Shown here piece after piece: positions 48,438 to 61,266 of a DNA stretch of 64,000 bases. Under the pieces are notes generated by a model, which saw nothing but the letters and a program-made list of their open reading frames with translations, was not told where the DNA came from and searched no databases. How positions within the stretch are numbered: the stretch's first letter is position 1; the number at the start of each line of letters is the position of its first letter. Position numbers and translations under genes: made by a program. Source of the DNA: an uncultured Clostridia bacterium (GTDB lineage: Bacteria; Bacillota; Clostridia; Lachnospirales; CAG-274); contig CANPXH010000009.1 in the NCBI GenBank assembly GCA_947585865.1, forward strand, positions 1-64,000, written 5' to 3'.

Positions 48438-50165
48438 ATGAAAAGAAAAATAGCCTTGATAATAACGGCGGCTCTGCTCATAACGGGCTGCAACATAACA
48501 TCTGCCGATACGGGTACCGCTGTGAGAGTGGATCTGAGCGGCGTAAAGGAAAGCACGTATAATATAACAAAGGGCGGCACATATACGCTTACGGGCAGCT
48601 ATAAGGGTATGATAAATGTAGATACAAAAGACAGCGTGAAGCTTGTGCTCGATAATGTCAATATCGAAAACGGCACAGGCCCTGCAATATATGGTGAAGA
48701 TTGCAGTAAGCTCATAATAGAAACGGCGGAAGGCACAGAGAATACATTTGCAGACGGCAGTGAATATACTTCCGACGGCAAGGGATGTATATTTTCCAAT
48801 GACGATATAGTGCTTCAAGGAAGCGGCGTGCTCAATGTAAATGGGGCTTACGACCACGGCATAATATCCGATGACGGTGTGGAAATAGAAGGCGGCAGCA
48901 TAAATATAAATTCGGTCGGCGATGGTATCCATGCCAATAATGACATTACACTTAAGAACGGAAATATGACCGTTACATCAAAGCAAGACGGTATGCAAGC
49001 CGAAAAGAACGTAAATATAGAAGGCGGCAGTATAAAGATAACGGCTGTGGGAGAAGCAGCCGAAAGTACGGATAACGATCCCATGGATAGGGGAAGGATG
49101 CCCTTTGACGGCGAAAGACCTATGGGCGAGAGACCTCAAATGAACGGGCAGATGCCTAAAATGCCAAACGGCGAAATGCCTGAAGAGTTCAGGGAACACA
49201 GAAAAGATATGGCCGCAATGAATGAAGCTGCCGCAGAAATCACAACGTCAGCCAAGGAGCCAAAAGAAAATACGACATTGAGCGAGGCTCAAACAGAGAC
49301 TACCACCGAATACCCCAGCAGCAAGGGCATAAAGGCCGATGGGGATATAACAATAAAGGGCGGCAGTATAGATATAAGCTCAAATGACCATTGCATAAAG
49401 TCAGCAAACATAACGACTGTGGAAAACGGCAGCTTAGTTCTCGGCTCATCTAAAGGCAAGGGAATAAAAGCAGAGGGAGATCTGTTTATAAACGGCGGCG
49501 ATATGACTATAACGGCAAAGGATGAAGGTTTAGAATCAAAAGCGATAGCCACAATAAACGGCGGCAGCATAAATATAAAAAGCGAGGATGACGGCATAAA
49601 TGCAGGCGGCGGCTCAGGCTCAATGAAAATGGGCAATGTGGAAGATGCCGATGAACATCAAGTTATAATAAACGGCGGCAGCGTACACATAGACGCCGAA
49701 GGAGACGGCATAGACTCTAACGGCAACCTTAGCATAAACGGCGGCACAGTCAATATAGACGGTCCATCGAACATGGGAAACGGCGCCCTTGACTACGGGG
49801 CTAAGGGCAGCATAAACGGAGGAAATGTCATAGCCTTGGGCAGCGCAGGTATGGTTCAGTGTGCCGAAGAAGGAAAGCAGAATGTATTCAATATCACCTT
49901 TGACGAAACACAGGCAGCGAAAACGACTGTGGAGGTAAAGGACAGCAAGGGAAACACCATAGGAAATATCGTGTCCGCAAAGCAGTTCCAAAATATGGTA
50001 TTTTCATCCGATAATATAAAGGTCGGCGAAGCATACACCGTATATACAAACGGTAGCGCCGCCGCAAAGATCACAGCCGTAAAGGGAGTCACCTCTTACG
50101 GAAACAGCGGTAAGGGCTTTGGCAGAGGCGGGTCAAGGCCGAATATGGATAATATGGCAAAATAG
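48438..50165 (+). CDS. DUF4353 carbohydrate-binding lipoprotein with Met/Pro-rich insert
   Basis: 575 aa. A lipoprotein signal (KRKIALIITAALLITGC) with the lipobox Cys at residue 18. The body consists of parallel beta-helix-like repeats (IEGGSININSVGDGIHANND, IKGGSIDISSNDHCIKSAN, INGGSVHIDAEGDGIDSNGN), as in the Cthe_2159/DUF4353 polygalacturonate-binding family. Between about 215 and 290 the repeats are interrupted by a Met-, Pro- and Glu-rich stretch (GRMPFDGERPMGERPQMNG...) and a Thr-rich linker. The C-terminus is glycine- and Asn-rich. Probably a surface protein binding acidic glycan or calcium. Own terminator at the end. Confidence 0.87.
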   Translation: MKRKIALIITAALLITGCNITSADTGTAVRVDLSGVKESTYNITKGGTYTLTGSYKGMINVDTKDSVKLVLDNVNIENGTGPAIYGEDCSKLIIETAEGTENTFADGSEYTSDGKGCIFSNDDIVLQGSGVLNVNGAYDHGIISDDGVEIEGGSININSVGDGIHANNDITLKNGNMTVTSKQDGMQAEKNVNIEGGSIKITAVGEAAESTDNDPMDRGRMPFDGERPMGERPQMNGQMPKMPNGEMPEEFREHRKDMAAMNEAAAEITTSAKEPKENTTLSEAQTETTTEYPSSKGIKADGDITIKGGSIDISSNDHCIKSANITTVENGSLVLGSSKGKGIKAEGDLFINGGDMTITAKDEGLESKAIATINGGSINIKSEDDGINAGGGSGSMKMGNVEDADEHQVIINGGSVHIDAEGDGIDSNGNLSINGGTVNIDGPSNMGNGALDYGAKGSINGGNVIALGSAGMVQCAEEGKQNVFNITFDETQAAKTTVEVKDSKGNTIGNIVSAKQFQNMVFSSDNIKVGEAYTVYTNGSAAAKITAVKGVTSYGNSGKGFGRGGSRPNMDNMAK

Positions 50166-50238: not shown

Positions 50239-50267
50239 TCATAAGTTAAAGAGCTTGGACATATATA
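50239..50267 (+). promoter_or_regulatory. Candidate sigma-E-type promoter of spoIIIA operon
   Basis: TCATAAG (50239-50245), 14-base spacer and CATATATA (50260-50267) partly match the sporulation sigma-E boxes (KMATATT and CATACAWT). spoIIIA is under sigma-E control in Bacillus. The match is imperfect. Confidence 0.35.
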
Positions 50268-50297
50268 TTATTTATACATATGATCAAAGGTGAGACC

Positions 50298-51182
50298 ATG
50301 AAAAACATATACGATAATCTTAAAAAATACATGAATGAAGGTCTGTACAAGGCGCTGCTGAAAAACGACTATATGGAAAAGGCCTGTGAGATAAGGCTGC
50401 GTGCCGACAAAGCAGTGCTCATAAGGCTTAGAAACAAAGAGGTGTGTACGGATCATGTGATAAGCCGAAAGGAGCTTTGGGAAACATTTTGCAGAATAGT
50501 GGAATACTCTCCTTATGCCTACAAGGAAGAGCTTATAAACGGCTATGTCACAATAGAGAGAGGCTGGAGAGTAGGCGTGTGCGGCACTGTGATAGAAGAA
50601 AACGGCACAGTAAAAAATATAAAGGATATATCTTCTCTCAATATAAGGATAGCCAGAGAGATAAAGGGATGCAGCGATGAAATAGATATAGACAGGGGAA
50701 ACGTAATAATAATATCTCCTCCCGCCTGCGGCAAGACCACATTGCTCAGAGATATGATAAGGCGCTGGAGCAATAACGGAAGGACAATAGCGGTAATAGA
50801 CGAAAGAAATGAATTGAGCGGTACATACAGGGGCGTTGCCGCTCTGGATCTTGGCACACGCACAGACGTTATAGTAAATTCTTCCAAGTTAAACGGCTTT
50901 AACATAGCTCTGAGAGCACTGGCTCCCGATGTGATAGCGGTAGATGAGATAGGTAGCGAAAGTGATTTTACGGCGGTAAGACAGGCTATGGTATCGGGAG
51001 TGGATGTAATATGCACCGTTCATTCCTCGGATCTGAACGAACTCAGGAACAGACGGCATTTTTCCGAAGTAATAAAAGAAAAGCTTTTTGACCGCTATAT
51101 AGTGCTTAAAAAGAATTTTGGCAAAAGCAGCATAGACAAGATATACAACAAGGAGATGATAAACATATGGCAGGAAAAATAA
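50298..51182 (+). CDS. spoIIIAA: Stage III sporulation protein AA (ATPase)
   Basis: 294-aa secretion-type ATPase that powers the SpoIIIA-SpoIIQ channel between mother cell and forespore. Walker A is SPPACGKTTLL near residues 137-147, Walker B VIAVDEIG near 215; the His-box-like TVHSSD and conserved N-terminal GYVTIERGWRVGVCGT are present. The ATG at 50298 follows AAAGGTGAG; an in-frame ATG at 50280 lacks a site. First of eight consecutive spoIIIA genes. Confidence 0.96.
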   Translation: MKNIYDNLKKYMNEGLYKALLKNDYMEKACEIRLRADKAVLIRLRNKEVCTDHVISRKELWETFCRIVEYSPYAYKEELINGYVTIERGWRVGVCGTVIEENGTVKNIKDISSLNIRIAREIKGCSDEIDIDRGNVIIISPPACGKTTLLRDMIRRWSNNGRTIAVIDERNELSGTYRGVAALDLGTRTDVIVNSSKLNGFNIALRALAPDVIAVDEIGSESDFTAVRQAMVSGVDVICTVHSSDLNELRNRRHFSEVIKEKLFDRYIVLKKNFGKSSIDKIYNKEMINIWQEK

Positions 51183-51676
51183 TAGGAGGGATAATGATAA
51201 TAGCGGCCTGCATGGGCTTTGGCTACAGGCTGTCGATCAAGCACGTACTGAGGAAAGAGGAGCTTACGACAGTGAGAGATACGCTGAGCAATATACTCTC
51301 AAATTTGGAATATGGCAGGATGACATTTGAAGAAGCTTTGGCGGAAACGGTACGGGATGAAGGGGCAAAAGAGATATTTTCGCCTGCGCTCATATCACTG
51401 AAAAACGGCAACAGCATAAAGACCGCATGGAAATTTGCCCTTGAAAGCTGCTGCAGGGATACATATATGACCGATGGGGATATAGAAAGCATAATAAGGA
51501 TGGGCGAGGGATTTTCATCGGGAGATCTTCTTTTGCAGAAGACATACGCAGACAATCTCATAAAATATATTGATAAAGAGATAGAGGGCATAAGCGGCAG
51601 GATGGCCGACAACAGTAAGCTGTGCAGAAGCGTGAGCATCACGATAGGCATATTTATAGTGGTGCTTTTGATATAG
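51167..51676 (+). CDS. spoIIIAB: Stage III sporulation protein AB
   Basis: 169 aa, membrane protein with an N-terminal and a C-terminal hydrophobic helix and a helical middle (RDTLSNILSNLEYGRMTFEEAL) like the type II secretion GspF domain. It overlaps spoIIIAA by 16 bases. Part of the feeding-tube complex. Confidence 0.95.
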   Translation: MAGKIIGGIMIIAACMGFGYRLSIKHVLRKEELTTVRDTLSNILSNLEYGRMTFEEALAETVRDEGAKEIFSPALISLKNGNSIKTAWKFALESCCRDTYMTDGDIESIIRMGEGFSSGDLLLQKTYADNLIKYIDKEIEGISGRMADNSKLCRSVSITIGIFIVVLLI

Positions 51677-51686
51677 GAGGCTTGCT

Positions 51687-51881
51687 ATGGACATAAATAT
51701 AGTTTTTAAAATAGCGGCGGTGGGCATACTTGTGTCGGTGATAAATCAAGTGCTTTCAAGAGCAGGCAGAGATGAACAAGCCATGCTCACCACCCTTGCG
51801 GGACTTGTGGTAGTGCTGTATTGGGTGATACAGTACATAAGCGATCTGTTTGACAGAGTACAGACTCTTTTCAGATTTTAG
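51687..51881 (+). CDS. spoIIIAC: Stage III sporulation protein AC
   Basis: 64 aa with two membrane helices (IVFKIAAVGILVSVINQVL and MLTTLAGLVVVLYWVI), normal length. Ribosome site AGGAGG. Part of the channel complex with SpoIIIAD. Confidence 0.95.
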   Translation: MDINIVFKIAAVGILVSVINQVLSRAGRDEQAMLTTLAGLVVVLYWVIQYISDLFDRVQTLFRF

Positions 51882-51891
51882 GAGTGATAGC

Positions 51892-52278
51892 GTGGAGATA
51901 GGAAAGATCGCCGCTCTTGGTATAATAGGCGCCGCTTTGGCTGTGATACTCAGAGAAGAAAGACGCTCTTATGCCATGCTTACCGCCATAATGACCTGTA
52001 TACTTATATTCGTTTTTATATTGCCGTATATGGCGGAGATAATAGAAAAGGTCAGAGAAATAGGCGGGGATCTGAATATATACAGCGAGTATATAGCGGT
52101 CATGATAAAGGCGCTGGCAATAGCATATGTGTCTATGTTTACGTCACAGCTTTGCCGTGATTTCGGACAAAACAGCATAGGCGATAAGATAGAACTGGGC
52201 GGAAAGGTGATAATATTGATAAATGCCGTATCGGTAATAGACGATGTGGCGGATAAGATAATGAGGTTTATACAATGA
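51892..52278 (+). CDS. spoIIIAD: Stage III sporulation protein AD
   Basis: 128 aa, three to four membrane helices, paralogous to SpoIIIAC (KIAALGIIGAALAVILREE). Start GTG at 51892 after GGAGTGA; an upstream open stretch would overlap spoIIIAC. The stop overlaps the ATG of spoIIIAE by 4 bases. Confidence 0.95.
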   Translation: MEIGKIAALGIIGAALAVILREERRSYAMLTAIMTCILIFVFILPYMAEIIEKVREIGGDLNIYSEYIAVMIKALAIAYVSMFTSQLCRDFGQNSIGDKIELGGKVIILINAVSVIDDVADKIMRFIQ

Positions 52279-53360
52279 AATACATACTTACGCTTTTTAT
52301 TGTCCTTTTTATGTGTGTAAGCGTTTACGGCAATGAACAAAACGATATTTTGGATCGTCTCGATATGCAGGATGTGGAAAACTCCGTTGATGAAAGCACC
52401 GATCTTTCGTTCAGGGAATTGCTCGATGCCGTGCTTTCGGGCGAAGACGTGATCTCGCTTATAAAAAGGGATATAAAAGACATTGCAAAAAAGCAGCTTG
52501 AAAGGTGCGGAAGCGGTATAAAAAGCGTGATAGCGGCAGGTATAATATGCGCCTTGATAAATATGATATCCCAGGATATAAACGACCGCTCGGTATCCGA
52601 GCTTATAAATTTGACCGGGCAGGTGATAATACTGGGTATAGCATCCGTCAGCCTCAAGACTTCCATAAGCCTGCTGAGGGATTGCATACAAAGCATCACG
52701 AATGTAATAAACAGCGCACTGCCTCTCATAATAACAGTCACTGCCCTAAGCGGCAGAGGCGTATCCGCAGGAGGCGGTATACTTGCAATGGGAACGGCAA
52801 TGGTCGCCTCGGGCATAGATGCCGTTGTTATACCGCTGCTTATAATGGGAACGATGCTCAGGATAGTAAATGTTATTTCGGACAAAGAGATACTGGACAG
52901 ACTTTCCGAGCTTTTTATGAACGTTACCTCGGCAGCCCTTAAAATATGTGCCTATGCCTTTGTTTTCATAATGGGCATAGAGAGAATAAGCGGAGGAGCG
53001 ATAGGCAGAAGCGCAGGCTCTGTGTTTAAATCCGCAATAAAAATGATACCCGTGGTGGGAGATATAGTAGGGGGAGCCGGAGACATAGCGGCGACCGCAG
53101 TGCTTGCAGTGGGGAATGCCGTAGGCATAGTGCTGGTGATAGTGCTGATAACTATAAGCAGCATACCCATTATAGAAATAGGCATAGCCGCTTTTGTGTA
53201 CAAGCTCACGGCAGCGCTTATGGAGCCTGTCTGCGACAAGAGCACGATAGCGGTCATAGACACTGTGGGAGAAGCTGATCTGAAGATAATGGCGGCATTG
53301 TTTGTGGTAAACGCCATGTTTGTAATGTCCGTTGCGATACTTTTGTGTGCGGTGAGGTAG
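52275..53360 (+). CDS. spoIIIAE: Stage III sporulation protein AE
   Basis: 361 aa, slightly shorter than the Bacillus protein (399). Signal-like N-terminus (KYILTLFIVLFMCVSVYG), then about eight membrane helices; conserved ITVTALSGRGVSAGGG and IPVVGDIVGGAGD-type loops. A proposed permease-like core of the channel. Confidence 0.95.
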   Translation: MKYILTLFIVLFMCVSVYGNEQNDILDRLDMQDVENSVDESTDLSFRELLDAVLSGEDVISLIKRDIKDIAKKQLERCGSGIKSVIAAGIICALINMISQDINDRSVSELINLTGQVIILGIASVSLKTSISLLRDCIQSITNVINSALPLIITVTALSGRGVSAGGGILAMGTAMVASGIDAVVIPLLIMGTMLRIVNVISDKEILDRLSELFMNVTSAALKICAYAFVFIMGIERISGGAIGRSAGSVFKSAIKMIPVVGDIVGGAGDIAATAVLAVGNAVGIVLVIVLITISSIPIIEIGIAAFVYKLTAALMEPVCDKSTIAVIDTVGEADLKIMAALFVVNAMFVMSVAILLCAVR

Positions 53361-53366
53361 GCAGAT

Positions 53367-53534
53367 ATGGAAGGGATAAAGGAATATGCGGGAAAAATAG
53401 TTATATACATAGTGCTCACAAGCTATGTGGGAGTGCTGTTTCCGAACAACAGCTACAGAAAATACATAAGGCTCGTTATGGGAGCCGTGCTTGTGGCCGT
53501 TGTTCTTAAGCCGCTGGAAATATTTTTTGCATAG
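53367..53534 (+). CDS. spoIIIAF: Stage III sporulation protein AF, short form
   Basis: 55 aa: MEGIKEYAGKIVIYIVLTSY to the end KPLEIFFA. It has the two N-terminal membrane helices and the loop LFPNNSYRKYIRLVMG typical of SpoIIIAF, and is in the expected place between AE and AG. The family is normally about 200 residues, with a ring-building-motif domain after the helices. Here a TAG stop follows the second helix and the next gene starts 12 bases later, so the missing domain is not present in another frame. See findings. Confidence 0.85.
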   Translation: MEGIKEYAGKIVIYIVLTSYVGVLFPNNSYRKYIRLVMGAVLVAVVLKPLEIFFA

Positions 53535-53546
53535 GATGGTGATATA

Positions 53547-54020
53547 TTGGATATCGTAAGATCGTTGAAGGACAGGAAAAGTATAGCTTACATAGGGATA
53601 ATCTTAGCCGTGGGCATATTTCTTATGAGCGGCAAGGGAAAGACGACAGTAAGAACGGAACCGACCAAACAGCAGGATATAAGTCATAGGCTGGAAAAAA
53701 TACTTTCGGAGGTAGAGGGAGCGGGAGATGTAAAGGTGCTTATAAGCTACAGCAGCTCCGGGGAGAAGATACTTGCATATGACAGCGAGGAGGAAAAAAG
53801 AGCCGAGGACGGCAGAGACGAGACCAATATAAAAAGCCGTGTCGTATATGACGGCAGCAGGGCTCCCTTTGTGCTGGCGGAATATATGCCCGAAGCGGAG
53901 GGAGTCATAATAGCGGCTCAGGGAGCGGATGACGAGAATGTAAAAAATCAGTTAATAAAAGGAACAATGGCATTATTGGGCATCGATGAGCATAAAATAG
54001 AAGTATTAAAGATGAAATAG
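53547..54020 (+). CDS. spoIIIAG: Stage III sporulation protein AG
   Basis: 157 aa (about 229 in B. subtilis). One membrane helix (about 13-28), then a single ring-building domain (DISHRLEKILSEVEGAGDVKVLISY ... AEGVIIAAQGADDENVKNQLI, split at the middle). It forms a large ring in the space between the forespore membranes. The start is TTG at 53547 after GGATGGTGA. The segment that forms the extended beta-triangle in Bacillus is shortened. Confidence 0.93.
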   Translation: MDIVRSLKDRKSIAYIGIILAVGIFLMSGKGKTTVRTEPTKQQDISHRLEKILSEVEGAGDVKVLISYSSSGEKILAYDSEEEKRAEDGRDETNIKSRVVYDGSRAPFVLAEYMPEAEGVIIAAQGADDENVKNQLIKGTMALLGIDEHKIEVLKMK

Positions 54021-54029
54021 GAGGTCAAT

Positions 54030-54686
54030 ATGTTTACTATTAAAAAAAATCAGGTCATCATTTCGGCACTTGTGGTGATGATCGCCGCAGCAGGTTATCT
54101 GAATTACATAGACTCAACGGGAAATGTCAGCGAGGTAATGGTGACCGATGAAGGAGATCTTGCCCTTACGGAAGACGTAGCCTTTACAGACGAGGATGTG
54201 GCAATTGCTTCGGAAAGCGAGGAAACTACGGCAAACGCTGCCGAGGGCGGCAAGGATGAAAAGGGCAAAAAGACAGATGAGGCGGCAAATCCCGATGCGG
54301 GAGAGGCAGTGTTTGTCAATTCGTCAAATGACTCTTCGTATTTTGTACAGGCAAAGCTGGATAGAGAGCAGTCTCGTTCAAAGCAAAAGGATATGCTGAA
54401 TGAAATGCTCAATAACGAAAAAATAGACGATGAAAAGAAAAACGAAGTGACCACGGCTATGCTGCAAATACAGCAGAGAATAGAAAAGGAGACAGCCGCA
54501 GAGTCTATGATAAAGGCAAAGGGCTTCGGAGACGTTTATGTGAGGATAGATGACGATACCGTAGACGTAGTGGTGGATAAGGGCGAACTGACAGATGCCG
54601 AAATAGCTCAGATAGAAGATATAGTGAAAAGAAAAACAGGCGTATCGGCAGATAAAATAAGAATAACTCCCCTTAAGGGAAAATGA
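54030..54686 (+). CDS. spoIIIAH: Stage III sporulation protein AH
   Basis: 218 aa, the same length as in B. subtilis. One N-terminal membrane helix (about 9-22), an acidic Ala/Glu-rich linker (about 40-100), then the YscJ/FliF-like ring domain (RSKQKDMLNEMLNN, VYVRIDDDTVDVVV, IEDIVKRKTGVSADKIRI). In Bacillus it binds forespore SpoIIQ; here that partner would be elsewhere. Last gene of the operon. Confidence 0.95.
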   Translation: MFTIKKNQVIISALVVMIAAAGYLNYIDSTGNVSEVMVTDEGDLALTEDVAFTDEDVAIASESEETTANAAEGGKDEKGKKTDEAANPDAGEAVFVNSSNDSSYFVQAKLDREQSRSKQKDMLNEMLNNEKIDDEKKNEVTTAMLQIQQRIEKETAAESMIKAKGFGDVYVRIDDDTVDVVVDKGELTDAEIAQIEDIVKRKTGVSADKIRITPLKGK

Positions 54687-54959: not shown

Positions 54960-55382
54960 ATGAAGGATCTGAATATCAATATGGGTATCACTCCTCTGCT
55001 CTATCAGGCATCGCATAAGTGCATGATGATGCAAAACGAGATATTGAAAAAATTTAATATATCCGTTATGCAGGCTGCAATACTTGCCATTATACGCTTT
55101 GTTGAAGACGGTACAGTCAATCAAAGAACTCTCAGCAGGGAAATGGGCGTAAAAGAATCATCGGTCTCCAGCATGATAAATACAATGATAAAAAACGATC
55201 TTATCATCAGAGAACAGAGCAAGACAGACGCCAGAAGCAAGCTGCTGCGTCTGGGAGAAAGAGGCAGAGAGATAACGGAGTTCATAGAGAACTCGGCTCA
55301 GGATGTTGAAAATGAACTTTACGGTCATTTGACCGAGGAGGAAAAAAGCTCACTGGTAAGCATTCTAAAAAAGCTGATATGA
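54960..55382 (+). CDS. MarR-family transcriptional regulator
   Basis: 140 aa. Winged helix with recognition region TVNQRTLSREMGVKESSVSSMINTM and wing IIREQSKTDARSKLLRLGERG; flanking helices for dimerisation. Ribosome site GTGAGG. First gene of the efflux operon, and probably a repressor released by the exported compound. Confidence 0.92.
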   Translation: MKDLNINMGITPLLYQASHKCMMMQNEILKKFNISVMQAAILAIIRFVEDGTVNQRTLSREMGVKESSVSSMINTMIKNDLIIREQSKTDARSKLLRLGERGREITEFIENSAQDVENELYGHLTEEEKSSLVSILKKLI

Positions 55383-55461
55383 TCCATGAGCGAAAGCAAG
55401 CCGATATCAGGCAGCAATAAATTTGTTCAATATTAAATTATATATATACGGGAGGTTATGT

Positions 55462-56952
55462 ATGAAAAAGTATTTGAGATTTACGACAGCGGCATTATGT
55501 ATTGCAATGCTTTCAGGATGCGGCGGGCCAAAGGGCGATATGCCAAATGAAGAACAGGAAACAAAGGTGACGAGCGTGGAGATCGCCAACCCTACCGTCA
55601 GCACCGTTAAAGACGAATATACATATTCGGGTACCATAGAAGCGGCGGAAACAGTTGATGTATCCGCAAAGGTACAGGGCACTGTTGCGGCTACATATTT
55701 CAATGTAGGCGATACGGTTACAAAGGGTGCGGTGCTCTATAAAATAGACGATAAGGACTATCAGACTGCTCTTAAGAGCGCTCAGGCTTCTCTTAATTCA
55801 GCCAATGCAGGCGTGCAGTCAGCCAAGACCGGCGTAGCTACGGCTAACGGCGCCGCAATGAAGGCTCAGCTTGAAAGTGCCAAAAATGCCATTACAAATG
55901 CGCAGACCAATCTTACAAATGCAAAAAAATCGGTAGAAGACGCAGAAATAGCAGTAACGAATGCAAAGACAAATTATGACAAGGCCAAAAATGACTATGA
56001 CATAAATAAGCAGTTGTATGATGTGGGCGGACTTCCCGAGGATACTCTCAATACATATAAAATAGCCTTGGACACAGCCGCAAATTCTCTTACGACAGCC
56101 AATAATGCAAAGGACAAGGCGGACCTTGGCGTAAAGAGTGCGGAAGATGCCCTTAGCCAGGCAAATACATCTTACAACATACTTGCAAATGAGACTACGG
56201 CGGAAAATGCAAAGAAGGCAAACGATGCCCTTAACACTGCTCTTGCCGCTCAAAAGTCAGCAACGGTAGCTGTGGAGAACGCACAGCAGCAGATATCCTA
56301 TTGTACGGTCACAAGCCCTATAAGCGGCACTGTCCTCAGGAAAAATGTAACTGCGGGAGCTATGGCGGCAGGTGCAGGCTATCAGATAGTGGATCTTTCC
56401 TCTCTTAAGGTACAGGTAAACGTATCCGAGCAGATAGCCGCAAGCGTGCATATAGGCGATGAGGTAACCATAAACATACCGTCTATGGAGGAGAACAATG
56501 AGTTCTCAGGCTCCATTACGGAAATACCGCCGGGAGCAAATGCCGACGGCACATATACAGTTAAGATAAATATACCCAATACCACAGGCGCCATTAAAGC
56601 CGGAATGTTTGCAGAGGTGCACTTTGCCAAGTCTACAAGCAGCGATGCCTTTGTGCTTCCGAGAGATGCAGTGCTTGACAATAATGGAGAAGAATATTAT
56701 ATATTCGTTGCAGAGAACGGAAACACCGCTGTCAGAAGACCTGTAACGGTAGGTATAGACACAGGCGATACCATAGAGGTGATATCAGGCGTTGAAGCTA
56801 CGGACAAGGTGATCGTAAAGGGTCAGACCTATCTTGCAGACGGCGATGCCATAAATATAGTATCGGACAACGGCGTTGACGTAGAGCCTGTGACCGAAGC
56901 CGCTACAGTCAATAACGAGGCTCCTGCCGAAGGCAAGGAGGCTAAGAAATGA
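55462..56952 (+). CDS. RND efflux membrane-fusion (adaptor) lipoprotein
   Basis: 496 aa. Lipoprotein signal (AALCIAMLSGC; lipid-bearing Cys near residue 19). HlyD/AcrA-like order: beta-barrel and lipoyl start (YSGTIEAAETVDVSAKVQGTV), a long coiled-coil hairpin rich in Ala/Asn/Lys (about 95-285), lipoyl return (YCTVTSPISGTVLRKNVTAGA), and beta-barrel plus membrane-proximal domain (IPPGANADGTYTVKI; GQTYLADGDAI). The hairpin is unusually long, as in adaptors that touch TolC. The ATG at 55462 follows GGGAGG. The stop overlaps the pump start (ATGA). Confidence 0.92.
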   Translation: MKKYLRFTTAALCIAMLSGCGGPKGDMPNEEQETKVTSVEIANPTVSTVKDEYTYSGTIEAAETVDVSAKVQGTVAATYFNVGDTVTKGAVLYKIDDKDYQTALKSAQASLNSANAGVQSAKTGVATANGAAMKAQLESAKNAITNAQTNLTNAKKSVEDAEIAVTNAKTNYDKAKNDYDINKQLYDVGGLPEDTLNTYKIALDTAANSLTTANNAKDKADLGVKSAEDALSQANTSYNILANETTAENAKKANDALNTALAAQKSATVAVENAQQQISYCTVTSPISGTVLRKNVTAGAMAAGAGYQIVDLSSLKVQVNVSEQIAASVHIGDEVTINIPSMEENNEFSGSITEIPPGANADGTYTVKINIPNTTGAIKAGMFAEVHFAKSTSSDAFVLPRDAVLDNNGEEYYIFVAENGNTAVRRPVTVGIDTGDTIEVISGVEATDKVIVKGQTYLADGDAINIVSDNGVDVEPVTEAATVNNEAPAEGKEAKK

Positions 56953-59900
56953 TAAAGACCTGTATTAAAAGAAAAGTTACGGTGATAATGGTAACTCTTG
57001 TTGTGTTCCTCGGCGGCTTTATAGCCTACAACAATTTGGAGCTTGCCATGACTCCCAATGTGGATCTTCCCGTTGCACTTGTTATGTGTAATTATGTAGG
57101 CGCCGCTCCCGAAGAAATGGAGGAGCTCGTTACAAAGCCTATAGAAGAACAGCTTGCTACCATAACAGGCGTTGACACTATTACATCTCAGTCCTCTTCG
57201 GGCAATTCAATAGTGGTAATACAGTTTGTAGACGGCACGGATATAGACGTTGCCACCAACGATATGAGAGACAGACTTGACAGAGTACGCTCTATGCTCC
57301 CCGATGATGCTACGGATCCTTCCATAATGAAGATGGATATGAATGCCCAAAGCATTATGGTAGGCGTCACAAGTAGCAAGTATGATGTGGATACCCTTTA
57401 TAATCTCCTTGATGATAACGTATCTTCCATGTTTGAAAAAATAGACGGCGTTTCATCCGTATCACTCAGCGGCGGTACCGATAAGGAAGTCAGGATAATA
57501 GTTGATCAAAACAAGATGCAGAATTACGGTATCACCATAAATACCATTTCTGCCGCTCTTTCAGCGGAGAATACAAATATGCCTTCCGGATCTCTTAAGC
57601 AGGGCTCTACCGAAATAGCTCTGAGGACAGAGGGCGAATTCAATTCGCTGGAAGATATAAAGAATACATTCATTACCACAAAGACGGGCAACAACGTTAT
57701 GATAAAGGATGTTGCCGAAGTAAAGGAAATGAAGAAAGACGAAAGCTCCAAGTCTCTTATAAACGGCAAGGAGGGATGTATGTATTCCCTTTCCAAGCAG
57801 AGCGATGCCAACATAGTTACAGTGAGCAAGAATATTGCCAAGACTATGGAGGATGTGAAAAAGCAGTACCCCGACTTTGAATTGACTATGCTCACAAATA
57901 CGGCGGATTACATAGAGCTTGGTATAAACAATATGGTAAGCACAGCTTTTCAGGCTGCATTTATAGCCATATTCGTTCTTCTTATAATATTGAGAAGCGT
58001 GAGGATGTCTCTTATAATAGGCGTATCTATCCCCACATCTATATTTGCCACATTTGCCCTTATGTATTTAAACGGTATGTCTCTTAATATGATGTCGTTG
58101 GGCGGCGTGGTCATAGCTATAGGTATGCTTGTGGATAACTCCGTAGTTGTACTTGAAAATATATTCAAGAAAAAATCCGAAGGCTTGGGCGCCTTTGAGT
58201 CGGCATACTACGGCTCATCGGAGGTCTCAATGGCAATTACGGCATCTACGCTCACAACTGTTGCCGTTTTCCTTCCGCTTACGTTTATGCCCGGTACCAT
58301 GGGCGATATTATGAAGGAGATATCATATACCGTTTGTTTTGCCCTTACGGCATCACTTGTTACGGCTCTTACATTTGTGCCTATGGCCTCAGCGGTGCTT
58401 ATGCGCTATGAGGAAAGCAAAGGCCATAAGGAAGGCGGCATAATAGATAAGCTTGACAACGGAGTGGGCGCATTCTTGGATAAAATGGATTCGGGATATG
58501 CCAAGCTCATAACAATGTGTCTTAACCACAGGATAAGAAGTGTTTTCATAATAATAGCTGTATTTATAGCATCGCTTTTCTGTGTGCCTTTGGTAGGTTC
58601 TGACCTTATGGCCACCACAGATGAGGGCGCCATAAGCATTACTGCCACTCTTCCCAACGGTACGGATTATGAGACCTGTGAGGCTATGCTCAATACTCTC
58701 CTTGACAGGATAGGAGATGTGCCCGAAACGGAAATGATGTACGCCACAGTAGGCGGCGGCATGATGGGTCTCAGCTCAAGCACATCCGTTTCTCTGTATT
58801 ACGATGTAGGCGATAAGGAAGACAGAACACGTTCCAGCGAAGAGATAGCCGATGATATAGAGAGCAGACTTCAGAATATAGCAGGCTGCGAAATAGAGGT
58901 AAGCGACAGCGGTATGTCTATGGGCTCCCTTGCGGGCAGCGGCTTTAACGTACAGATAAAGGGCGATGACAACGACACATTAAAGGAAATAAGCAATGAA
59001 CTTGTGGTCGAGCTTTCAAAAATACCAAATGCCGCAAATGTAGAGTCATCTCTTGACGACGCTTCCTCAGAGGCAAGCATTGTGATAAACAGAGCCAAGG
59101 CGGCTCAGTACGGCCTTAATACAAGAGCGATAGCTTCAGCCATAAGTGCGGCAAATTCAGGCTCCGTAGCAACAGAGTACAAGACAGACGGTACGGAGAT
59201 CGACGTTAGGATAATGTATCCCGATGATGATATAGAATACATAAAAGATCTTAACAACCTTACCGTCACCACACCTACAGGCACGACCATACCTCTTACG
59301 GAGGTAGCTTCTGTGGAAATGGGCGAAAGCGCACTTACTATAACGAGAGAAAATCAGCAGAAATATATTGAGCTTACAGGCGAGATAAAGGGTCTTGACG
59401 GCTCCGCTCAAAGAGAACAGGTACAAAAGGTGCTTGACAGCTACGTATTCCCCGAAGGCTACACATATGAATTCAGCGGAATGATGGAAATGATGGAGGA
59501 TACGTTCAAGGATCTGTTTACTTGTATAGTAGTGGCTATATTGCTTGTATATATGGTAATGGCGTCACAGTTTGAATCCTTTGTGTATCCGTTTATAATA
59601 ATGTTCTCAATGCCTATGTCCATTACAGGCGGTATATTGGGCCTTCTTATCACAGGCAACAGCCTTACGGCTTCGGCATATATGGGACTTATAATGCTTG
59701 TAGGTATGGTCGTTAACAATGGTATCGTGCTTGTGGATCATACTAATCAGCTTCTTGAAAATGACGAAGAAATGGGAGTAAACGAGGCGCTTGCAGAGGC
59801 AGGCCGTGACAGACTTAGACCTATACTTATGACTACGCTCACAACGGTAATAGGTATGCTTCCGGTGGCTTTGGCCATAGGTTCGGGCATGGAAACAAAC

Positions 59901-60110
59901 CAAAGCCTGGGTATAGTTATAGTATTCGGTCTTACGATAGGTACACTTATAACACTTTTGTTCATACCTCTTCTTTATTCCGGCATAAATTCTGTAAAGA
60001 ACAAATTCAGGAAAAAACACAGAAGAAAGGTATCACAAAAGGATGAGGACAAGAGAGCAAGACGAGAGGCAAAAAAAGCCTTTAAGAAAGGAGCAGTGAC
60101 TAATGAATAA
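56949..60110 (+). CDS. RND-family efflux pump (AcrB/HAE1 type)
   Basis: 1,053 aa, full length. Twelve membrane helices in two repeats with large extracellular loops after helices 1 and 7. Motifs: TPNVDLPVALVMCNYVGAAPEEMEE near the N-terminus (shown in part), GGVVIAIGMLVDNSVVVLENI with the proton-relay Asp in helix 4, and MVVNNGIVLVDHTNQL plus AGRDRLRPILMTTLTT in the second half. Drives proton-coupled export of lipophilic compounds. Co-transcribed with the adaptor and the TolC-like gene. The Lys/Arg-rich C-terminus is cytosolic. Confidence 0.96.
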   Translation: MIKTCIKRKVTVIMVTLVVFLGGFIAYNNLELAMTPNVDLPVALVMCNYVGAAPEEMEELVTKPIEEQLATITGVDTITSQSSSGNSIVVIQFVDGTDIDVATNDMRDRLDRVRSMLPDDATDPSIMKMDMNAQSIMVGVTSSKYDVDTLYNLLDDNVSSMFEKIDGVSSVSLSGGTDKEVRIIVDQNKMQNYGITINTISAALSAENTNMPSGSLKQGSTEIALRTEGEFNSLEDIKNTFITTKTGNNVMIKDVAEVKEMKKDESSKSLINGKEGCMYSLSKQSDANIVTVSKNIAKTMEDVKKQYPDFELTMLTNTADYIELGINNMVSTAFQAAFIAIFVLLIILRSVRMSLIIGVSIPTSIFATFALMYLNGMSLNMMSLGGVVIAIGMLVDNSVVVLENIFKKKSEGLGAFESAYYGSSEVSMAITASTLTTVAVFLPLTFMPGTMGDIMKEISYTVCFALTASLVTALTFVPMASAVLMRYEESKGHKEGGIIDKLDNGVGAFLDKMDSGYAKLITMCLNHRIRSVFIIIAVFIASLFCVPLVGSDLMATTDEGAISITATLPNGTDYETCEAMLNTLLDRIGDVPETEMMYATVGGGMMGLSSSTSVSLYYDVGDKEDRTRSSEEIADDIESRLQNIAGCEIEVSDSGMSMGSLAGSGFNVQIKGDDNDTLKEISNELVVELSKIPNAANVESSLDDASSEASIVINRAKAAQYGLNTRAIASAISAANSGSVATEYKTDGTEIDVRIMYPDDDIEYIKDLNNLTVTTPTGTTIPLTEVASVEMGESALTITRENQQKYIELTGEIKGLDGSAQREQVQKVLDSYVFPEGYTYEFSGMMEMMEDTFKDLFTCIVVAILLVYMVMASQFESFVYPFIIMFSMPMSITGGILGLLITGNSLTASAYMGLIMLVGMVVNNGIVLVDHTNQLLENDEEMGVNEALAEAGRDRLRPILMTTLTTVIGMLPVALAIGSGMETNQSLGIVIVFGLTIGTLITLLFIPLLYSGINSVKNKFRKKHRRKVSQKDEDKRARREAKKAFKKGAVTNE

Positions 60111-61266
60111 GAAAAGGATTTTATGTGTCGCCATGGCGGCTGCAGTCGTTACATCATCATCTCCCGTATATGCCGACAAGCTTTCTTCCATAGGAAGCTC
60201 CAAAGACGGTGAAGTGAGGATAATAGGCACTACATACAGCGATGATGCTGATGACGGCGCTGTGACCGATCTTACGGTAGAACAGGCTGTTGAAAAGGCT
60301 ATTGCATACAGCAGAACATTGAAAAATTTAGATGAAAGCATAGAGATAGCCGAAATAGATGAAATGGTAACACGCTATGCATGGCAGAGCTCTTTGGACT
60401 CTACGTCAACGGTATCATATTCCATCGCTTTAAAGAATCTGAGAAACAGCCTTAAAAATTATGATGCGGATAAAGAGGTGGAAAAAAACAAGATAGAGTA
60501 CAATATAAAGCAGCTTTTCTACGGACTTAAGGATGCACAAAGAAGCATAGAGCTTTATGACGAGGGCATAGACCTCAGCAGCAGACAGCTTGAGATATAT
60601 AAGGTAATGCTCAAGGTAGGCAAGCTGAGCCAAGTGGAATATGATGCCCAGGTCACATCTCATGAAAATCTTGTGGCAAGCAAGCTCGCTCTTGAAAACT
60701 CTATGTCAGCGGCTTACAGAACACTTAACCAGCTTATGGGTGAAAATGTAAACAATAAATACAATATCATAATAGAGGATAAGGAATTTACCCCGGTAAG
60801 CTCACAGCTTGATCTTGATATCACCATAGCAAGAGCTCTCAGTTCAAATCAGACTGTCAAGAAGCTGGAAGACACTGTGGATATTGCAAAGTACACATCC
60901 GACACATACGGATACAGAGGCAGCACAGGCGTGACCACAAGCGATAAGGAATCCATCGATTCTCAGTACAATCAGGCTTCAAGAGGACTTGGGGACACAA
61001 AGACAGCCCTTACATCCTCCATTAAAACAGTGTATGAAAATATTAAAAATACCGAGAGCACATACGCTCAGAATACGGCAAAGCTCAGGAATATGGAGGA
61101 ACAGCTCCTTGTGAAGGAGACTCAGCTCAAGCTTGGCAAGATAACTCAGATAGAGCTTGACCAGTTCAAGTATTCTATGGAGCAGCTTAAGGCACAGCAG
61201 GAATCTGCAGTTCGTTCCTATGATCTGCTTGTTATGCAGTTTAACAATTCAAACCTTATAATGTAA
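60103..61266 (+). CDS. TolC-like efflux protein
   Basis: 387 aa, signal peptide (RILCVAMAAAVVTSSSPVYA). Two TolC repeat halves rich in helical coiled coil (LTVEQAVEKAIAYSRTLKNLDE; LYDEGIDLSSRQLEIYKVMLK GKLSQVEYDAQ, split; KLRNMEEQLLVKETQLKLGKITQIELDQ, in part). Shorter than Gram-negative TolC (about 470), and the outer-membrane beta-barrel strands are hard to see. It overlaps the pump gene by 8 bases. In a cell with one membrane it would extend the adaptor through the wall rather than span an outer membrane (inference). Confidence 0.87.
   Translation: MNKKRILCVAMAAAVVTSSSPVYADKLSSIGSSKDGEVRIIGTTYSDDADDGAVTDLTVEQAVEKAIAYSRTLKNLDESIEIAEIDEMVTRYAWQSSLDSTSTVSYSIALKNLRNSLKNYDADKEVEKNKIEYNIKQLFYGLKDAQRSIELYDEGIDLSSRQLEIYKVMLKVGKLSQVEYDAQVTSHENLVASKLALENSMSAAYRTLNQLMGENVNNKYNIIIEDKEFTPVSSQLDLDITIARALSSNQTVKKLEDTVDIAKYTSDTYGYRGSTGVTTSDKESIDSQYNQASRGLGDTKTALTSSIKTVYENIKNTESTYAQNTAKLRNMEEQLLVKETQLKLGKITQIELDQFKYSMEQLKAQQESAVRSYDLLVMQFNNSNLIM

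Follow-up and report, generated by a model that had tools for sequence, protein, structure and literature searches.

We find that SpoIIIAF (hereafter AF; the other SpoIIIA proteins are abbreviated likewise) has been cut down to a two-helix membrane hairpin of 55 amino acids in an uncultured Clostridia bacterium, and that the same short form is carried by 12 species that make up one clade, in which it is under purifying selection. Given these findings, we consider it likely that the short AF is a genuine, inherited and functioning minimal SpoIIIAF, in which the hairpin is the essential membrane core, and that the ring domain is a dispensable accessory. The window, by which we mean the whole 64,000-nucleotide stretch of DNA that was analysed, comes from a 2.58 Mb assembly scored as 100% complete with 0.02% contamination, and it contains all eight spoIIIA genes:

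50239..50267, + strand: sigma-E-like promoter of the operon, TCATAAG-N14-CATATATA (consensus match only)
50280..51182, + strand: spoIIIAA, ATPase (PF19568, E 1.5e-73)
51167..51676, + strand: spoIIIAB, 169 aa (PF09548)
51687..51881, + strand: spoIIIAC, 64 aa (TIGR02848, E 2.4e-27)
51892..52278, + strand: spoIIIAD, ~128 aa, GTG start with Shine-Dalgarno sequence (PF06686, TIGR02849)
52275..53360, + strand: spoIIIAE, 361 aa (PF09546, E 3.1e-56)
53367..53534, + strand: spoIIIAF, two-helix membrane hairpin only, 55 aa (PF09581, TIGR02896, structure model, 12-species conservation)
53547..54020, + strand: spoIIIAG, 157 aa, TTG start (TIGR02830; PDB 5wc3 by sequence and fold)
54030..54686, + strand: spoIIIAH, 218 aa (PF12685, E 6.6e-58)

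Understanding of the SpoIIIA-SpoIIQ channel is still poor, and drawings often show it as stacked rings, one of them formed by AF. Deletion of AF, as of other SpoIIIA proteins, impairs sporulation in B. subtilis, although the hairpin is then removed as well. Ring-building motifs are known from AF, AG and AH (PMC7924749; for AG also PMC6934232), and B. subtilis AF, which has been noted to resemble FlhB/YscU weakly, is found in complex with AG, AE, AD and AB (PMC2703783). Surveys either treat AF as universal among spore formers (PMC3533761) or report that it is missing entirely from Erysipelotrichia and from Planococcaceae that form spores (PMC7924749). We found no description of a hairpin-only AF in the papers searched, which lay largely outside the subscription literature.

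The spoIIIAF reading frame runs from an ATG to a TAG stop, and its structure model consists of two helices (residues 2-24 and 28-54; mean pLDDT 83). The Pfam model Spore_III_AF (PF09581) recognizes it with 38.2 bits against a cut-off of 28.3, with the alignment confined to positions 1-39 of the 185 in the model. Coverage of NCBIfam TIGR02896 is limited to positions 3-49 of 106, and the score of 40.9 bits lies under the equivalog cut-off of 61.3 bits because the protein has no counterpart to the model positions after 49. With B. subtilis SpoIIIAF (206 aa, PF09581/TIGR02896) the window protein shares its place in the operon between spoIIIAE and spoIIIAG, the N-terminal two-helix hairpin and the model match over that hairpin, but it lacks the C-terminal ring-building domain that follows helix 2. 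Because the frame ends after helix 2, we regard it as an orthologue by position and hairpin, and not as a full-architecture SpoIIIAF. The spacer to the TTG start of spoIIIAG at 53547 is 12 nt long, leaving too little room for a ring domain, and it holds no frameshifted remnant of one. The original prediction, that AF is reduced to its membrane part, that spoIIIAG begins 12 bases past the stop and that the ring domain is absent and not frameshifted, is thus borne out. A fusion of AF to AG by read-through or frameshifting was also considered and rejected: the two genes share a frame across the stop in the window alone, and such a fusion is not conserved because the spacing in 11 relatives gives different frames.

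The seven other genes (spoIIIAA, AB, AC, AD, AE, AG and AH) were all identified by Pfam/NCBIfam and none is broken, so the operon is otherwise intact, as had been claimed. The ATG at 50298, downstream of AAAGGTGAG, is the likelier start of spoIIIAA. Sites similar to the candidate promoter (T[TA]ATAA[AG]-N14-CATATATA, again by consensus match only) lie upstream of spoIIIAA in three relatives (G003, G011 and G013). In B. subtilis, an internal sigma-E promoter for spoIIIAG sits inside spoIIIAF; among the relatives, no site for such a promoter within spoIIIAF is conserved.

To place the truncation, we combined an AF model search with operon walks in 48 species of the family. A short AF of 55-57 aa occurs in all five species of the window's genus (g1) and in all seven of a sister genus (g5), and AG begins 4-12 nt after the AF stop in these species, one (G010) excepted. 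In the family's other AF-bearing genera (g2, g3, g4, g6, g7, g8, g9 and g10) the protein has ~136-186 aa; for G019 of g6, AE is split in the assembly, so the scripted AF length of this genome is wrong. A tree built from AA, AB, AD, AE and AH unites g1 and g5 in one clade with 100% ultrafast bootstrap, adjoined by g6 with its full AF, and a tree of AE alone gives the same grouping a support of 1.0. Because the 12 short-AF species make one clade, we conclude that there was a single ancestral loss, retained since. The sequences are most simply explained by one deletion before g1 and g5 diverged, and when AF lengths are placed on the tree, the check that had been proposed, the loss indeed falls on that one branch. 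Assembly error as the source of the stop is excluded, given that 12/12 species carry the short AF in separate assemblies; the same count disposes of the case in which sister strains have a full-length AF and the stop is a sequencing error. The exception in spacing, Candidatus Gallispira edinburgensis (G010; L072/L109), carries ~190 nt of palindromic, repeat-like sequence between spoIIIAF and spoIIIAG, flanked by a duplicated copy of the spoIIIAF end, and this insertion looks like a small mobile repeat.

The short spoIIIAF is under purifying selection. In within-genus pairs its dN/dS is 0.10-0.20, near the values for AA, AB, AE and AG; these ratios are approximate, as many synonymous sites are near saturation, and AC and AD lay outside the test. 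The closest pairs give 0.14 (G014-G015; pS 0.32) and 0.11 (G014-G016; pS 0.23). Across the 12 species, 12/55 AF columns are invariant, and many of these fall in helix 2 or in the inter-helix loop, P-x-x-S-Y/F-R/K-K-Y. Where AF is full-length, pN/pS is higher outside the hairpin, both in g6 (hairpin 0.42, remainder 0.60) and in g10 (0.31 and 0.53); selection thus holds the ring domain less tightly than the hairpin even in proteins that retain it.

Reduction of AF recurs in other Clostridia. An AF match is present in 273/392 genomes of the order, and after examining 74 weak matches and reading out their operons we find that AF lengths form a continuum, many relatives having a tail too short for a ring domain. 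In many genomes of family f6, for instance, AF has 99-136 aa and the Pfam match mostly stops near position 67-87. A single genus, g27 of family f17, contains full-length AF (G298), AF of 83 aa (G063, G265 and G271) and hairpin-only AF of the 57-aa type (G320, G277 and G316). In genus g90, G226 has an AF of 56 aa followed by 129 nt of eroded sequence, and the five other species read have a longer AF. Outside the order, AF has 54 aa in G423 (L184) and 58 aa in the rumen MAG RUG13544 (L129), each with an AG of ~131 aa. The hairpin-only proteins of Clostridia thus span 54-58 aa. Parsimony on an AE tree of 91 taxa requires five changes between hairpin-only and longer AF; because the deep branches of this tree are weak, the number of independent cuts is safely stated as four or five. 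The idea that AF reduction is peculiar to the window's lineage is contradicted by this recurrence. The short state is nevertheless uncommon overall, since, of 137 AF-bearing genomes sampled evenly across the class, only a handful show an AF frame of <=125 aa.

Comparison with these other families (AF of 83-136 aa) shows that length varies greatly outside the hairpin, and in the order's short-tail AF proteins, too, Pfam matches mostly end near the hairpin. However, those proteins keep a tail, often acidic and with a V-E-x-I-x-I-G-like end, whereas the window AF is tail-less. In f6 (L131-L137, L146-L148 and L165) such a motif often stands right before AG, suggesting a conserved peptide that replaces the ring domain. 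At the other extreme, AF reaches 264-273 aa in Candidatus Lachnoclostridium MAGs (L126, L127 and L128), far above the family norm. The AG of G423 has little left of the strand insertion from which the cup of the Bacillus ring is built, alongside its hairpin-only AF, and to judge from these sequences, the SpoIIIA ring sets of G423 and RUG13544 are possibly the most reduced in this survey.

AG is also short in the window, as the original prediction stated, with 157 aa vs 175-187 aa in most relatives. It is shorter because the stalk, the segment between the membrane helix and the ring-domain GxG, has 26-32 residues here vs 37-48 in most relatives; the ring domain is whole. The protein has the membrane helix and a ring-building domain with inserted strands, has gained no extra domain, and scores 68 with TIGR02830, under the strict equivalog cut-off of 147.7. 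Its sequence matches PDB 5wc3, the 30-mer SpoIIIAG structure (E 5e-6), which is also the best fold match (E 1.6e-8) of its structure model (mean pLDDT 71, ring core ~90), ahead of FliF and needle-complex rings.

These observations bear on several alternatives to a functioning minimal AF. The AF truncation could mark the point at which decay of the operon first becomes visible, in a lineage on its way to losing sporulation. Such loss is frequent in the order, where 71/80 AF-negative genomes are also without AE, and non-sporulating clostridia miss AF among other genes (PMC3533761). We nevertheless consider such early decay unlikely, given that 12 species have retained the short AF over a long divergence, that all tested genes of the operon are under purifying selection (all eight are present, AC and AD falling outside the dN/dS test) and that the window's other SpoIIIA genes are all intact. 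Late sporulation genes are still present as well: small acid-soluble spore proteins and SpoIVA occur in 12/12 short-AF species and SpoVAC/SpoVAEB in 11/12, while G046, a family member without SpoIIIAE, is missing all of them. Because these genes are retained, the short-AF species, all of which are uncultured and represented by metagenome assemblies, are likely to form spores, and on the evidence of selection and late gene content the SpoIIIA machine seems to be still in use.

A second possibility is that AG and AH changed so as to make up for the loss; a shorter AG stalk, for instance, would lower the ring toward the membrane. The short stalk in the window speaks for such active compensation, but genus g8 combines a full-length AF with a stalk of 30-36 residues, and the hairpin-only genomes G320 and G226 have 34-40; stalk shortening is therefore no strict companion of AF loss. 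Nor is AH specially constrained in the window's lineage, since it is the best or nearly the best conserved operon protein in every genus tested. We accordingly give compensation little credence. It is very improbable, finally, that the ring domain moved to another gene, as a split or fused protein, with no function lost. As short, fast-diverging units, ring-building domains could escape detection after relocation. In the window's genome, however, a search with the Pfam AF model yields no credible second match (the strongest candidate, a frame on contig 38, has a weak E of 0.03 and runs across a stop), a profile of same-family AF tails, with the model's own members as controls, has no match there at E<=1, and AG carries no added domain. 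Relocation is thus largely refuted.

We propose instead that the ancestor of g1 and g5 lost by deletion the part of spoIIIAF downstream of membrane helix 2, so that AG came to lie only a few bases past the new AF stop. The remaining hairpin most likely takes its place beside SpoIIIAB-AE in the platform that the SpoIIIA-SpoIIQ channel has in the mother-cell membrane, and AF's essential job would be done there. The ring stack between the membranes would then be built by AG, together with AH and SpoIIQ, with no AF ring, and the AF ring domain would be a fast-evolving accessory that can be dropped. We infer that the hairpin binds membrane partners and that AG/AH rings suffice to carry the channel. 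Because the same cut arose independently elsewhere in Clostridia, the hairpin is probably the part of AF that matters most. The slimmed-down channel of the original prediction is therefore plausible, but it is only part of the story, in that the ring domain was lost repeatedly at the same boundary with the hairpin kept. Spore-forming Planococcaceae such as Solibacillus and Sporosarcina likewise tolerate a channel without an AF ring domain; they are reported to lack all of AF plus AA, AB and sometimes AD, whereas the window keeps the hairpin and seven partners (PMC7924749).

It is conceivable, though we lean somewhat against it, that an AF ring is unnecessary in the mother cell-forespore channel anywhere, the conserved role being that of the membrane hairpin and the ring being repeatedly lost; if so, ring-stack models need AG (and AH) only. 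More generally, natural losses of the ring domain next to a selected hairpin separate the two halves of AF, one probably essential in the membrane and the other optional. The short-AF clade offers a smaller natural channel for structural work, and presence/absence surveys of AF that use full-length models can misread this intermediate state.

The genes around the operon are of separate interest. Directly upstream, at 48438-50165, lies a gene for a 575-aa Cthe_2159 carbohydrate-binding protein (PF14262). On the other side, the genes beyond spoIIIAH in G003 and G004 differ from those of the window, where positions 54960-61266 encode a MarR regulator, an HlyD-type adaptor, an AcrB-family RND pump and an OEP/TolC-family outer membrane efflux protein. 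Together these make up a full set for tripartite efflux, which is odd in a member of the Clostridia if the cell is single-membraned.
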